Assembly (NCBI GenBank): GCA_905182715.1
Contig: CAJJCP010000024.1
Location: forward strand, 1-38,244
Direction of reading: 5' to 3'
DNA: 38,244 nt
DNA from: an uncultured Candidatus Poseidoniales archaeon
GTDB lineage: Archaea; Thermoplasmatota; Poseidoniia; Poseidoniales; Poseidoniaceae
Positions 1,389 to 8,310 of the stretch are shown piece after piece. Position 1 is the first letter of the stretch, and every line of letters begins with the position of its first letter. Position numbers and translations under genes: made by a program. The notes below the pieces were generated by a model. That model searched no databases. It was not told where the DNA came from and saw nothing but the letters and a program-made list of their open reading frames with translations.

Positions 1389-1461
1389 GGGCGTGTAGAT
1401 CAGTTGGAAGATCGCTACCTTGGCATGGTAGAGGCCCCGAGTTCAAATCTCGGCACGTCCA
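1389..1461 (+). tRNA. tRNA-Ala (GGC anticodon)
   Basis: A complete 73-nt cloverleaf: acceptor GGGCGTG/CACGTCC, D-arm GATC/GATC, anticodon stem CTACC/GGTAG with loop TTGGCAT (anticodon GGC), T-arm CCGAG/CTCGG with loop TTCAAAT, discriminator A. Pair 3-70 is G-U, the classic alanine identity element. CCA follows directly at 1462-1464, so the 3' end could be encoded, although CCA is also part of the repeated motif. No intron is present. The last 12 bases of the tRNA plus ACCATT are repeated downstream four more times. Confidence 0.95.
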
Positions 1462-1906
1462 CCATTCGAACAGATTTCATCAACTCCATGGTGGACTTGC
1501 GCATCAACGAATCAAATTCCAATCACCTTCGTTGATTGCTCGGCACGTCCACTCTCAATTGAGTAGATTCTGATCAATCCGCGAGAGTGGACTTGCGCAT
1601 CAACGAATCAAAATCCAATCACCTTCGTTGATTGCTCGGCACGTCCACCATTCGAACAGATTGTCATCAACTCCATGGTGGACTTGCGCCATGAAGAATA
1701 CGTTTCTTTTTGCTTTCTTCATTGGCTCGGCACGTCCACCATTTGAGTAGATTCTATCAATTCCATGGTGGCTGTGCGCCACAAATGAAAGTGTCAATAT
1801 TTGACTTATTTGTCGGCTCGGCACGTCCACCATTTGAGCAGTTTTCATTTAATCCATGGTGGACTTGCGCATCAAACAAAGCCGATGCCAAGCAGTTTCT
1901 TTGTTG
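1449..1906 (+). repeat. Five-unit tandem array of tRNA-Ala 3'-end repeats with paired hairpins
   Basis: Five units start at 1449, 1539, 1635, 1726 and 1817 (lengths 90, 96, 91, 91, ~90). Each begins CTCGGCACGTCCAC; the first copy is the actual 3' end of the tRNA. Hairpin A pairs GTCCACCAT with ATGGTGGAC across a ~22-base loop. In unit 2 the stem becomes CCACTCTC/GAGAGTGG, a compensated change. Hairpin B follows with different but self-complementary arms: ATCAACGAA/TTCGTTGAT (units 1, 2), ATGAAGAA/TTCTTCAT (3), ACAAAT/ATTTGT (4), ACAAAG/CTTTGT (5). No convincing protein is encoded. This fits a structured RNA array or serial duplications at a tRNA attachment site. Confidence 0.85.
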
Positions 1907-1987: not shown

Positions 1988-2821
<834 letters not shown>

Positions 2822-2895
2822 ACTTGTGATCTCATCCAATTTACACCGAAATCTTGTATTCAAGAAACGTGGATTGAAATTAAACATTAGGTAGA

Positions 2896-2904
2896 TTTAT
2901 ACAT
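2896..2904 (+). promoter_or_regulatory. TATA box for a leaderless start at 2926
   Basis: TTTATACAT in an AT-rich stretch is centred about 26 bases before the ATG at 2926. That is the spacing expected for an archaeal TATA box driving a leaderless transcript. It supports 2926, rather than 3134, as the original start of the helicase gene. Confidence 0.5.
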
Positions 2905-2925
2905 TTTAAAAATTCCGAGGCTGTC

Positions 2926-3201
2926 ATGCTCGATGCTAAACAGTTACAAAAAAAAACGCAATCGGTATACTTCGGCTCACTCAAAAGCATCTGGCTTTCA
3001 CATATACCAGTTCATGAGCGTCAAGAAAAATTCCCTGATGCTTTGGAACAAATCCCATCTAAATTGGTAACTACGAGTACGTTTTGCAACATATTTTTCC
3101 CAGACTTGTCGAATGGACAAAAAGGGAGTTTAGATGGTGAGAAGAGCCTGGTTTGGGATACGTTCAATTCTGAAAGGTGGAGTTCTAGCCATACGTCATG
3201 A
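2926..3201 (+). pseudogene. Probable N-terminal fragment of the SF1 helicase, in a shifted frame
   Basis: This 91-codon frame starts with an ATG placed correctly behind a TATA box. It reads like protein up to ...GEKSLVWDT (near 3162). The next frame continues as IRSILKGGVLAIRHDGNY. Joined, they give a block of the form vW..IRS.lKGG, resembling the stretch before motif II in TRANK1-like SF1 helicases (from memory of the family). The overlap and the +1 frame change suggest one gene broken at about 3155-3165, by mutation or sequencing error. A separate small protein is the alternative. No helicase motif lies in this fragment. Confidence 0.45.
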
Positions 3202-6200
3202 CGGAAATTACACCAAAGACGATCTCGCCCAACTTGGAAATACAGAAACTGTTCAAATTCCCGCAAGGCATACTTCAGAACACTTTTCTGATGAAGAACT
3301 CAAGTCTCTTCTGATCATTTACGAAGAATATCAAAAATGGCTGATGCAAAAGGGATTTTATGATGATATAGACCTTGTAATACGTGCAGTTCGGAATGAG
3401 TCCGGTGAAGAAGCTAGAAATCAAAAAGAAAAAGATGACCTGTTTAATATCTCCCTAACCACAAAGGCAGACAAGAGAAAAAATATGATAAATAATATCA
3501 GACTTAACGATGACCGGGTTGTATTCAAAAAACCGGCCCAAAAAGAACTAAAAAAAATTGAAAAGCAAAATGATAATCGCAGACTGATTTATGACTGGAT
3601 TCACCGCAATATATTGAACCACAGACCATTTACTCAAACTCATGTTGAACAAATAAAAAACCGCAATGTAGGCTCAACTGAAATAGGGGTGCCGATTTAC
3701 AAATCAAATATAACGAAAGGCGGGCGTGTATATTGGTCTTCTATTAAAAAGGGAAAGACAAGTACAATAGTTATTTATGATTTTTGTACTTCAAAAGAGG
3801 AAAAGGACCCTCGCTTATCTAAAATTCTTAAAAATTACAAATACTTAGAAGCCCATGAAAAAGACGATGAAAGTTCAAAGGCAATAACGGTAGACTTTAC
3901 GATTGATGACACACCTTGTGAAGGACCAGTAAGGCCATGGCCACATTCTGTCGAGATTGGATTTGGCCTAACTGAAAAAATCAACAGAGACTCCAATATT
4001 CAGCTTGACGAATTGCAAAGAGGGGCTATTTTATCCAATCAACCGTTATTGATTGATGGTTTAGCGGGGACTGGGAAAACAAGTGTGTTGTCGTATAGGG
4101 CAGTTGTTCGATGTGCAACCAGTTCACCGAAAACATCCATATTAGTTACTGCATCGAAGGACCACGTTGTGCAACGTATATCCGACACAATGCTGGAGAT
4201 CAAAGAAAATGGTGATTGGAAAGGAATGGAATTTGAGATGCAATATAAACTCGGGCCTGGAATCTCGAATGATAAAACTCCAACTATGGACCTCGCCAAA
4301 TTTAGCCAAGAAATACCCTCTGAAGGTTTCGATGAAATAGTCCTTGATGAAAGCCAAGATATTACATCAATTGAATTTGAAATGCTGAAAAGACTCTTGA
4401 TTGGACACAATTTACGCCGCTTGGTTTTTGCTGGAGATCCACTCCAAACCCTCAACCCAACTGGATTTGATTGGAATCGAATCCAAGCGATGTTTATCGA
4501 CGGAGGTGTTGAAAAATCGGACATAAATATTGAAAAATTTTACAACAATTACAGGTCACAGAAAAAGATTGTTGAATTTGCTAACGCAATACAACTCAAA
4601 CGTGGAGAATTATTTGGAGATAAGTCGCGAACTGTTATGAAGGCAATACGTGGAGGGACCGAGAAAATTCGATTTATCCGATATAATCTCGAAATCGATA
4701 ACCATATGCAGGCAATAGGAGATATAATCAGAAATGCTGGTGAATCGAAGGCCGTGGTAATCACCTCCGCACCCGATGATACTGGGATCAAAGATTTGCT
4801 TTCAGGGAACAATGCAGTCGATACCAACGACCCGGTGATGCAACATGTTTGGCAAAAGAAAAATCATGATTCAGATGAAGAACTCGACTCTTCAAATTTT
4901 CGGAAAGAATTATACTTACATTCATCATCTTCAGTAAAGGGTGCAGAATATGATGTTGTCGTACTGTATCGATTTGCCTCTAGTCAAAGTGCTAGAGAAT
5001 CACTTCTAAGTTTACTGCAGGAATGGAGTAGCATGGGAAAGGTGGCAAAAGAGCAGGGAATTAAGATTAGATATGAGTATAGTAAACTCTATGTCGCCTT
5101 GACACGGGCTTTTTCTAGAATCTATCTGATTGAAGATACGGAAGGGTATGACTTTTGGAAAAATGTAAAATTATATGAGAATGGTGCAAAACCTGAGAAT
5201 GGTGTCCAATTAAAAGGCATTGGCACATTTATTGATTTTGAAGATTATTTAGACCCTCTCAAAGCGGTGGACTCTGAAGACTTAAAACCCAAGATTGAAG
5301 CAAACAGAGAAAACTATAACGAGGAACGAGACAAATTTTTGAAAGATCCAACAAATATTATTGCTTTGCAATATGCCATAGGATTGGGGAAAAGATTACT
5401 TCAAAAAGAAAAGGATTCAGATATTCAAAAACAGCTATATGACTTACAGGGAGAATATGCTTGGTATCAATCTCGCGAGCCAGGACGCAGTGATAAGGAA
5501 AGAAACCGTCTTCTCGAGGATGCATTAGAATTCTTTACCAAAGCGGGCAGTTATGATAAAGCAGGTCCAATCTATTATTCAAGTAAGAAATATGACAAAT
5601 GTTTGACAAATGTTCAAAATATGACTGGAAGTTTCTATAAGTTCATCACTCTACTTTGTAAAATACATTTGAAAAGAGATACCAATCTAAGCCTCAGCGA
5701 TTGTTTAGACCTTCTCGATTATAGTATTCAACCGAATCAAACTTGGGCGAAAATATATCCAATGGACGAAGGAAGGATCACCTTGAAGGATTGGATACTT
5801 GGAAATTACACTGCTAACGAAGTAGTGCAAAATGAAAAGTCAAAGCCGCAATATGATGTCGCAGAACTTATTGCGAACTATCCAAGTTCTAAAGATATCA
5901 TGCTTATTTTAGAAGTACAGAAACAAACGAAAACTCTTAGATGGAACGAGTTGTATGCCGAAAATGTGATTAAATACATCAAATCTTTAGATACAACAAA
6001 AGATCAAAATGGAGAATACTATGAAAAACTCCAACACCTCTCGAATGCTTCAAAAGAAGGAAAAGTTGTAAAGAATCTTCGCAGAAGTATTGATAGAGGA
6101 TTACTCGAAGAACTTCCGAAGCACAAAAACCCCTCGACAAATCTAAAAAGTGTCTTTGATGATTTAGAAAAGGAAGAGAGGAAATCTCCGAAAGACAAGG

Positions 6201-7663
6201 ACCCAATGGAGATTGAAAATCTACAGACAAAAGGTCTTTTCTTAGCACGTAGAATAAGTGCTTCAGACAATGATTTAGGAATATTTGATGTTATTTTAGA
6301 AGCATCCGGTACGAAAGAAAAATCTGTTATGATCTTTGAAACATCAAAAGCGGAAAGAATGTTGAAGATTATGCAAGCAGGACCCGCAACCCATAAATTC
6401 CCGACCCAAGCTAACTTGGCTTGGCTTAATAAATCAAATTATGCAACCGTAATCGATTCATATCTTCAGAAATTGTTTGAATCATCAATCGATGAAAAAT
6501 ATCACAATAAAGATCCGAGTGTAGTTTGGAAGGAGCAAATCAGCACCAAAGCAAACAAGAAGATAGGGAAAGGTGCGACAAATGAATCAATGAAAATGAA
6601 AAAGGAATTCAAAGAATGGTTTGAAACTTTTTACAAATATACTTTCCAAACAAGATTCTCAGCCAATCTGGAGAGTAATTTGATACGATTATTTAGTTGG
6701 ACTGATTTTAGTGGATTTGATCAACAGGATGAAGGAAAATCTTGCTTCATAACACTCATGGATAATCGAAGCACTCCCCCAAAAATTTATGATTGTGAGC
6801 GTCAATTTATTGACACCTACATCAAAGCTGAATCAACTGAAATTAAACAATCAAACTGGAAGAAAATTCTCAAATGGAATGATGAAACACTATCAAGAAC
6901 AGTTATGAAAGCACGCTGGGAACGTGAAAATTCTCGATTTATGCTACAATTCAATGATAAGGATGCTAAAAAAATCAACCAACAAACATTGAGTAAATAT
7001 CTCAAGGTACTCGGAGAGAATGGATTTGTAGATGAAATGATTAAGGCTGAAGAACAGATAACCATTACTGAAAAGCAAGTTTTTGAGACACTAAAAGCGA
7101 AATGGGAGGAAGGGGATTTGCCAGATTATTTCAAAAATCGACAAGAGTATACAGATAAAGGCATGACAGAATTGCCACATGTGCCAGAGATGAATCTAGA
7201 CACCTATTTTGATAATGAAGATTGGTTTAAGGAGCATGGACTCTGTTTTTGCAGCGAAGAAATCTTAACACTAGCTCCAAGAGTTCCTAGTTCTAACATT
7301 GACTTAGAATTATTTGGGTTCCTCTATTCTAAGAACTTCAATACGTGGGTGGACAAGGGATTAATTGACTCAACTGCACCTGATATATATGACGAAAAAG
7401 AACAACTTGATGAAATTTTGGATGACCTATACCGGTCCTTTACTCCAGCTCCAAGTGCTAAACATCGTAAACTGTTTGCAAGTGATGATTGCGCTAAAGC
7501 CCAGTTCATTGCCTTTTTAATCGTTTTTGATATCATGGAAATACCAGATCAATCAAGTTGGGATATCTGCAATAAATATATTCAAATGTATAAACAGAAG
7601 AGAGACTTCTTCAATGAGAAGTCTTTGAAGGAAGTACAAGAAAGAATTAATAAATTCAAATGA
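3134..7663 (+). CDS. Giant SF1 (UvrD/TRANK1-like) helicase with RelE-like domain and TPR-like tail
   Basis: A 1509-residue protein. Residues 126-240 resemble a RelE/ParE toxin fold: a VVFKKPAQKELKKI helix, then a GRVYWSSIKKGKTSTIVIYDF strand pair. The SF1 core follows: Walker A GLAGTGKT (~309), Walker B VLDESQD (~404), GDPLQTL (~432), NYRS (~470), VKGAEYDVV (~600), LYVALTRA (~652). After ~740 comes a charged, helical, TPR-like region (for example FFTKAGSYDKAGPIYYSSKKYDKC), then ~650 residues I cannot assign. The usual insert before motif II (YEEYQKWL...DDIDLV) lies at the N-terminus, residues 55-88, instead of within the core. ATP-driven nucleic-acid translocation is firm; a defence or RNA-quality role is inference. 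Base composition is AT-rich relative to neighbours, and a TAG directly precedes this ATG, so the gene probably starts at 2926 with a frameshift. Confidence 0.85.
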   Translation: MVRRAWFGIRSILKGGVLAIRHDGNYTKDDLAQLGNTETVQIPARHTSEHFSDEELKSLLIIYEEYQKWLMQKGFYDDIDLVIRAVRNESGEEARNQKEKDDLFNISLTTKADKRKNMINNIRLNDDRVVFKKPAQKELKKIEKQNDNRRLIYDWIHRNILNHRPFTQTHVEQIKNRNVGSTEIGVPIYKSNITKGGRVYWSSIKKGKTSTIVIYDFCTSKEEKDPRLSKILKNYKYLEAHEKDDESSKAITVDFTIDDTPCEGPVRPWPHSVEIGFGLTEKINRDSNIQLDELQRGAILSNQPLLIDGLAGTGKTSVLSYRAVVRCATSSPKTSILVTASKDHVVQRISDTMLEIKENGDWKGMEFEMQYKLGPGISNDKTPTMDLAKFSQEIPSEGFDEIVLDESQDITSIEFEMLKRLLIGHNLRRLVFAGDPLQTLNPTGFDWNRIQAMFIDGGVEKSDINIEKFYNNYRSQKKIVEFANAIQLKRGELFGDKSRTVMKAIRGGTEKIRFIRYNLEIDNHMQAIGDIIRNAGESKAVVITSAPDDTGIKDLLSGNNAVDTNDPVMQHVWQKKNHDSDEELDSSNFRKELYLHSSSSVKGAEYDVVVLYRFASSQSARESLLSLLQEWSSMGKVAKEQGIKIRYEYSKLYVALTRAFSRIYLIEDTEGYDFWKNVKLYENGAKPENGVQLKGIGTFIDFEDYLDPLKAVDSEDLKPKIEANRENYNEERDKFLKDPTNIIALQYAIGLGKRLLQKEKDSDIQKQLYDLQGEYAWYQSREPGRSDKERNRLLEDALEFFTKAGSYDKAGPIYYSSKKYDKCLTNVQNMTGSFYKFITLLCKIHLKRDTNLSLSDCLDLLDYSIQPNQTWAKIYPMDEGRITLKDWILGNYTANEVVQNEKSKPQYDVAELIANYPSSKDIMLILEVQKQTKTLRWNELYAENVIKYIKSLDTTKDQNGEYYEKLQHLSNASKEGKVVKNLRRSIDRGLLEELPKHKNPSTNLKSVFDDLEKEERKSPKDKDPMEIENLQTKGLFLARRISASDNDLGIFDVILEASGTKEKSVMIFETSKAERMLKIMQAGPATHKFPTQANLAWLNKSNYATVIDSYLQKLFESSIDEKYHNKDPSVVWKEQISTKANKKIGKGATNESMKMKKEFKEWFETFYKYTFQTRFSANLESNLIRLFSWTDFSGFDQQDEGKSCFITLMDNRSTPPKIYDCERQFIDTYIKAESTEIKQSNWKKILKWNDETLSRTVMKARWERENSRFMLQFNDKDAKKINQQTLSKYLKVLGENGFVDEMIKAEEQITITEKQVFETLKAKWEEGDLPDYFKNRQEYTDKGMTELPHVPEMNLDTYFDNEDWFKEHGLCFCSEEILTLAPRVPSSNIDLELFGFLYSKNFNTWVDKGLIDSTAPDIYDEKEQLDEILDDLYRSFTPAPSAKHRKLFASDDCAKAQFIAFLIVFDIMEIPDQSSWDICNKYIQMYKQKRDFFNEKSLKEVQERINKFK

Positions 7664-7707: not shown

Positions 7708-8278
7708 TTGAATGATACGAGGATTCAAAGCATCGGTGCTCAACCTAAAGACATGGAACGAGCGTTACTCGGTGGCGGCTGCTTTTGGTGTACAGAAGGA
7801 GCGTTCAAAGGATTGTATGGTGTTGAATCGGCTTTGCCTGCCTATGCTGGAGGCCATGATCCCAATCCTCGATACGAACCTGTATGTTCTGGCACAACCG
7901 GCCATGCTGAAATCGTTGAAGTCGTTTTTGACCCCGATTTGATTCCCTTTGAAACGCTGCTTGAAGTGTTCTTTACTGTCCACGACCCTACTCAATTCAA
8001 TCGTCAAGGCAACGATATCGGTTCTCAATACCGCAGTTGTATCATGCCAACGACTGAACAAGCAAGTCGATATTGCACGGTCAACCATTGAAAAAATGCA
8101 AGAATTCTACGACCGCCCAATTGTCACATCCGTAGAAGAAGCAACGTACTTTACCTTGGCAGAAGAATACCATTACGATTACTACGCTCGCAATCCTGGC
8201 CAAGGCTACTGTATGGCAGTTGTCGGTCCGAAACTGAGTAAGGTTCGAGCAAAACACGCTCATCTCTACATAGCGTGA
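7708..8278 (+). pseudogene. msrA: Peptide methionine sulfoxide reductase A, frameshifted
   Basis: MsrA reduces the S-epimer of methionine sulfoxide in damaged proteins. The 5' part has the active-site [12 protein letters not shown], then [12 protein letters not shown] and [19 protein letters not shown], all diagnostic. The frame stops at 8091, but the C-terminal part ([19 protein letters not shown]..., AEEYHYDYYARNPGQGYC) continues in the +1 frame to 8278. The break lies near 8060-8075, at about GAACAAGCAAGTCG. One extra base (or two missing) explains it. The ORF opens with TTG at 7708; the ATG at 7753 (MERALLGG) is the more likely start. It is a sequencing error or a recent pseudogene; catalytic residues are intact. 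Confidence 0.9.
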
Positions 8279-8310
8279 TGTTGAAGTGGCGGGTGCGATA
8301 GCATCGGTGC

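Follow-up and report, generated by a model that had tools for sequence, protein, structure and literature searches.

In the SF1A helicases UvrD, PcrA and Rep, subdomain 1B is an insertion in subdomain 1A, between motifs Ia and II. An SF1 helicase preceded by a toxin-like domain is known from the CoCoNuT systems (type II and III-A), whose CnuH carries a RelE/colicin D-like RNase toxin-like domain in this position and has a predicted RNA-directed antiviral context (PMC11090510). CnuH is UPF1-like; its further parts are an OB/stalk, an SmpB-like domain and, after Walker A, a coiled-coil insertion, and its partners are McrB/McrC homologues (PMC11090510). The fusion of a RelE-like domain to an SF1 motor, which an earlier note on the DNA studied here had proposed for one of its genes, is thus already described, and is here placed in marine archaea. 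We analysed a stretch of 38,244 nucleotides (the window) from the genome assembly (1.78 Mb, 36 contigs) of an uncultured Candidatus Poseidoniales archaeon, in which a helicase gene and its surroundings present the following features (residues are numbered from ATG 3134).

1389-1464, plus strand: tRNA-Ala (GGC), border of the cargo (ARAGORN).
1449-1880, plus strand: array whose units, ~91-96 bp each, combine the tRNA-Ala 3' end (CTCGGCACGTCCACC) with an extended, imperfect hairpin (DNA fold).
1988-2821, plus strand: second cargo gene, a predicted membrane protein of 277 aa, with no Pfam family over cut-off and syntenic in genome G058.
2926-3146, plus strand: beginning of the helicase gene (frame 1), which encodes the first half of the relocated 1B, with a putative start at ATG 2926 (match to G058 and dN/dS).
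3134-7663, plus strand: open reading frame as noted earlier, 1509 aa; the actual gene is about 2926-7663.
3139-3147, plus strand: insertion of a single base, with a shift of frame (window GGTGAGAAGAGCCTGG, G058 GGTGAAAGGGCTTGG).
3149-3403, plus strand: second half of the relocated 1B (WFGIRSILKG ... DDIDLV), residues 6-90 (HMM of canonical 1B regions).
3509-3853, plus strand: candidate RelE-like domain, residues 126-240, moderately to weakly supported (profile, HHalign, AlphaFold).
4058-4081, plus strand: Walker A (motif I) GLAGTGKT, residues 309-316 (motif match, Pfam).
4172-4342, plus strand: closed insertion site, a short Ia-II linker where relatives have 1B (Walker A to motif II spacing).
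4343-5107, plus strand: SF1 motor from motif II to motif VI, residues 404-658 (motifs, PADLOC, AlphaFold and Foldseek of a homologue).
5231-7660, plus strand: fast-evolving tail, residues 700-1509 (alignment to L039 and G058).

Behind the RelE-like region, the complete SF1 motif set reported earlier is indeed present and in order: motif I is followed by Ia (residues 336-346), II (LDESQD, 404-409), III (AGDPLQTLNPTGFDW, 433-447), IV (NYRSQ, 472-476), V (598-609) and VI (YVALTR, 653-658). Since all motifs are kept, the motor is expected to be active. Pfam recovered AAA_19 above cut-off and UvrD weakly, the best PADLOC matches of the motor were to the UvrD-type GajB (E 2e-7), and a search of the full-length protein against the PDB by sequence gave no match. 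The motor part of the AlphaFold model of the homologue L039 mostly reached pLDDT 75-94, and its core, with two RecA-like domains, retrieved UvrD, PcrA and Upf1 in Foldseek (E down to 4.5e-8, probability 1.00).

The earlier note missed what stands ahead of this motor: the first 90 residues correspond to the motor's own 1B subdomain, relocated. From sequence comparison we are highly confident that the N-terminal block (2926-~3403) represents this subdomain, shifted from between motifs Ia and II. An HMM of canonical 1B regions matched the window protein at residues 4-90 with 28.6 bits (iE 7.5e-10) despite the truncation by the frameshift, the best of 400 shuffles of the protein reaching 6.0 bits, and also matched the N-termini of the homologues in G058 (iE 7e-15) and L039 (1.1e-12). 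Scores ranged from 28.6 to 44.9 bits over the three proteins, against at most 6.3 bits in 400 shuffles of each, and the same HMM gave no match in any of the three at the usual site between Ia and II. This site is closed: Walker A and motif II are separated by 96 residues in the window protein and 101 in L039; in 43 canonical members the distance is 205-241 residues (median 215). The signature W..IR..IKG, which may resemble TRANK1, lies about 110-160 residues after Walker A and before motif III in every canonical member where it was found together with Walker A. In L039 and the window protein it comes ahead of Walker A instead, at a distance of ~300 residues. A corresponding block stands between Walker A/Ia and motif II in two genomes of the same genus (G039, G003) and in one of the same family (G196); when L039 was searched against G196, two segments came back in swapped order, residues 74-169 matching immediately ahead of motif II. 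The name 1B rests on the position between motifs Ia and II and on the span of the Pfam UvrD N-terminal model, which covers the corresponding block in the canonical relatives L043 and G003.

The SF1A layout, with 1B inside 1A, is common to the canonical relatives examined and absent from the window protein, where 1B is N-terminal. The domain order is 1B, RelE-like domain, 1A with motifs I and Ia, short linker, 1A with motifs II and III, 2A with motifs IV-VI and a long variable tail, as compared with RelE-like domain, 1A with I and Ia, 1B, 1A from II onwards and tail in the relatives. The permuted order is found in the window protein, in L039 (QQSK01000008.1), where a single intact 1607-aa open reading frame with N-terminal 1B comes from a different genus and an independent assembly, and in two partial homologues, in G058 and in G137; the latter, the fourth permuted member, also starts with an N-terminal 1B and lies at a contig end. 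Of the intact homologues with a name, the nearest belongs to a Candidatus Poseidoniales archaeon. In the tree, both permuted motors whose cores are complete group in one clade (support 100/99), whose sisters are canonical archaeal members (92/85), a placement that is tentative because of long branches. As the farther relatives have the canonical order, this is most simply taken as the ancestral one. In a single archaeal lineage, then, 1B has left the motor for the N-terminal end of the protein. On the simplest route, RelE-1A(I,Ia)-1B would have been duplicated in tandem, after which the first copy lost RelE-1A(I,Ia) and the second copy lost 1B. Scanning 85,000 species genomes for [AG]GDPLQT[LIV]N yielded 47 family loci; as this pattern leaves out variants of motif III, the permuted type may be wider than found. 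A search of open-access papers, most subscription journals lying outside its coverage, found no description of a relocated 1B.

A RelE-like domain is likely in the family as a whole and suggestive in the window protein. A RelE/ParE profile built from archaeal ParE/RelE loci, independently of the window, has its best place within residues 1-100 in 12 of 30 bacterial members (7% expected, P 3e-7) and, after thinning of the set, in 8 of 18 (P 1e-5). HHalign aligned the bacterial N-termini with RelE at 83% probability (E 9e-6, 76 of 82 columns), ten decoy segments giving at most 0.5%, and R56, R78 and Y83 are nearly invariant in these relatives. For residues 126-240 of the window protein, where a RelE/ParE-like pattern of strands and helices had been read by eye, the picture is mixed. 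The best place of the archaeal profile in the 1509 aa is at residues 128-173 (iE 0.0035), and its best place in G058 (197-241) is the same site; HHalign gave 35-39% for this segment and at most 0.5% for all non-overlapping ones, with only the first strand and two helices aligned. In the AlphaFold model of the segment, strands and helices follow one another as in RelE (strand-helix-helix-strands), but pLDDT is 50, and Foldseek with this low-confidence model returned no RelE structure and meaningless top matches. Pfam RelE did not match the window protein, and profiles of the region against the PDB found only a marginal RelE (2khe, E 0.042 and 0.35) beside stray chance matches. Direct profile comparison of the archaeal region with the bacterial N-termini gave no match; in the aligned segment, G68, K73, G79 and R81 are the only residues common to the archaeal rows, and residues like R81/Y87, equivalent to R78/Y83 of the bacterial relatives, are not evident in the window protein. 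Neither Pfam nor PADLOC revealed an antitoxin partner gene beside the helicase, the sole cargo neighbour being the membrane protein, which has no family match. The proposed RelE-like head before the SF1 motor is therefore plausible, clearly better supported in the bacterial relatives than in the window, and may cleave its target.

The long tail announced for the region behind the motor (over 750 residues) is there, at ~800 residues. It can be aligned to L039 over its first ~320 residues only and to the tail of no other member, and its last ~130 aa are 40% identical to G058, as against 75% for the N-terminal part. Such divergence would suit a rapidly changing sensor or partner-binding region. 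As for its supposedly TPR-like beginning, no TPR match was obtained in the window protein, but a weak TPR_2 match occurs at the same place in the relative from G003.

The helicase and one membrane-protein gene make up a cargo of ~5.7 kb (1988-7663) beside tRNA-Ala, which is common to the window and G058 in the same place, downstream of the same tRNA; the membrane proteins are 73% identical in amino acids. GAT codons (poly-Asp) form two runs in the membrane-protein gene, and the length of the first is not the same in G058. In G028, whose msrA-ALDH region is 97.5% identical, the tRNA-Ala-derived array adjoins msrA, and helicase and membrane gene are absent. An HNH nuclease gene lies on the far side of the G028 array. 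The dS of the cargo exceeds that of the flanking ALDH gene, which suggests that the cargo has been exchanged between lineages. The array units fold strongly as DNA (z -4.3 to -7.0), and the letters of the inner stem vary between units while pairing is preserved; in being folded hairpin units they resemble attC-type recombination sites. Arrays of the same kind occur in L088 (5875-6282) and L014 (2219-2416), and the exact pattern was not found elsewhere in the assembly. A canonical member of 1474 aa stands between msrA and ALDH in G003 (L009, 6999-11429), on the other side of msrA from the window cargo.

Three overlapping searches returned family matches, some of them remote motor matches, in 7 of 100, 7 of 340 and 6 of 390 genomes, so that only a few per cent of relatives have one. 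No close relatives were found in phages and plasmids, nor in viral contigs, where there were just two remote motor matches (22-27% identity). Relatives of ~2,240 aa (G030, G059, G014), which represent a different AAA-SF1 protein whose neighbourhood is constant, were left out of the counts. A conserved protein of this length, with a distant SF1 motor and unchanging neighbours, is encoded in L010, L011 and L012, from three genomes of the genus, and is probably another giant family.

The neighbourhood survey of homologues that the earlier note had proposed gave a divided answer. Some are linked to defence genes: a canonical member (L069, 3996-13731) in a type III-B locus between Cmr3-6/CARF(-TM) and Card1, another (L072, 82-8652) directly upstream of the Cas10 and RAMP genes of a type III CRISPR-Cas operon, and a third (L058, 5506-11528) carrying a HEC-01A/AriA-like ATPase fused to its C-terminus and immediately followed by HEC-01B (DUF4276); in L065, SspB (DUF4007) is downstream. 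Many others, however, are solitary beside housekeeping genes, and a defence role is therefore not uniform across the family. At the window locus no recognisable defence partner was seen adjoining the gene. The antiviral role suggested earlier thus receives indirect support from the patchy distribution, the cargo position at a tRNA hotspot, the fast tail and the type III CRISPR and HEC-01 homologues, and defence cargo is the best-supported context.

The window protein is best read as a domain-rearranged variant of the RelE-SF1 helicase family, probably serving defence. As cargo of an archaeal defence locus, it would act as an ATP-driven SF1 translocase tracking along RNA or single-stranded DNA, while the fast-evolving tail would sense or bind an invader-specific partner and the RelE-like head would act on mRNA or the ribosome, or would have turned into a binding module. 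1B, tethered only via the RelE-like domain, would fold back to its usual place beside 1A, which would tie the head's position to the motor's engagement of nucleic acid. We hold this mechanism, taken as a whole, to have an even chance of being right. As substrate, RNA is weakly favoured over DNA on the links to type III CRISPR and the parallel with CnuH. That we are dealing with a natural topological rearrangement of an SF1 motor, in which an uninserted 1B works and docks via the RelE-like domain, so that in an archaeal antiviral protein translocation is mechanically coupled with a head acting on ribosomes or mRNA, is a doubtful proposition.

The protein could instead be a factor of RNA metabolism or ribosome rescue, its RelE-like domain binding ribosomes and its motor clearing stalled complexes. 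RelE-like domains act on ribosomes according to literature cited in PMC11090510, and the many homologues alone beside housekeeping genes would fit; but a patchy, island-borne distribution and a fast-evolving tail are unlike a housekeeping factor, and homologues sit within type III CRISPR operons and are fused to HEC-01A, so that we consider this role unlikely. The PADLOC matches to GajB, together with Foldseek matches that include UvrD and PcrA with DNA, would agree with a DNA-directed anti-plasmid or anti-phage helicase with a Gabija-like motor, the RelE-like region being an inactive protein-binding module. Against this stand the absence of a GajA OLD nuclease beside the gene (Pfam, PADLOC) and the association of homologues with RNA-sensing type III CRISPR, and we give such a helicase little chance.

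The open reading frame at 3134-7663 exists as described earlier, but its start is an artefact of the frameshift. A TAG stop lies immediately 5' of ATG 3134. Frame 1 from ATG 2926 runs MLDAKQL...SLDGEK, reading MLDAKQL...LSNGQKGSLDGEK, and then breaks; the product of 2926-3146 is 76% identical to residues 7-73 of G058, where this text and RAWFGIRSILKGG..., split between frames 1 and 2 in the window, form a single frame. The corrected protein would have about 1580 aa. As dN/dS is low on both sides of the break (0.21-0.31 before, 0.12-0.16 after), both halves are, by this measure, selected as one protein, with purifying selection on each. The neighbouring msrA (7753-8279) also has one base more than in G058, at ~8060, a second frameshift within 5 kb that breaks the gene, which suggests a sequencing or assembly error as the simplest cause of the extra base in the helicase gene. 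Programmed frameshifting was rejected, G058 having the stretch in one frame and msrA another extra base. The canonical member in G039 (L013, 7567-10594) is likewise split by a frameshift, near motif II. That the window gene is a decaying relic, with a real frameshift, a vestigial 1B part and a protein now without function, is very improbable, since its single frameshift and that of the G039 copy are outweighed by the low dN/dS on either side of the break, the intact frames of L039 and of G058 (N-terminal part) and the pointer to sequence error in the conserved msrA.

The preferred reading, a rearranged RelE-SF1 helicase carried as defence cargo, can now be set against the known systems. With CnuH, the window protein shares an SF1 motor, with a candidate RelE-like domain ahead of it and a predicted RNA-directed antiviral context, whereas the OB/stalk, the SmpB-like domain and the coiled-coil insertion were not seen in it, nor were McrB/McrC homologues at its locus, which is flanked by the membrane gene and by msrA/ALDH. 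With Gabija GajB it has a UvrD-like motor in common, and differs in lacking a GajA partner, in size, in its putative RelE-like domain, its tail and the relocated 1B. The motor motifs and core fold are those of UvrD, PcrA and Rep; however, 1B is not inserted in 1A, and a putative RelE-like domain and a tail are added. A moved 1B under purifying selection, with an intact copy in another genus, amounts to an experiment of nature on whether 1B has to be inserted in order to function. Among the closest systems is an unnamed family (L040-L085) from cyanobacteria, Thiotrichaceae/Chromatiaceae, Chloroflexota, Planctomycetota and archaea, which has a RelE-like N-terminal domain (well supported in bacteria, a candidate in the window protein) and, like the window protein, an SF1 motor and a long divergent tail, and shares its motif III, GDPLQT[LIV]NP[TS]GF. 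This is a second family, beyond CnuH, for the idea of a RelE-like/SF1 helicase, with members in type III CRISPR operons and in marine archaea; while 1B lies between motifs Ia and II in L040-L085, the window type has an N-terminal 1B and a short Ia-II linker.
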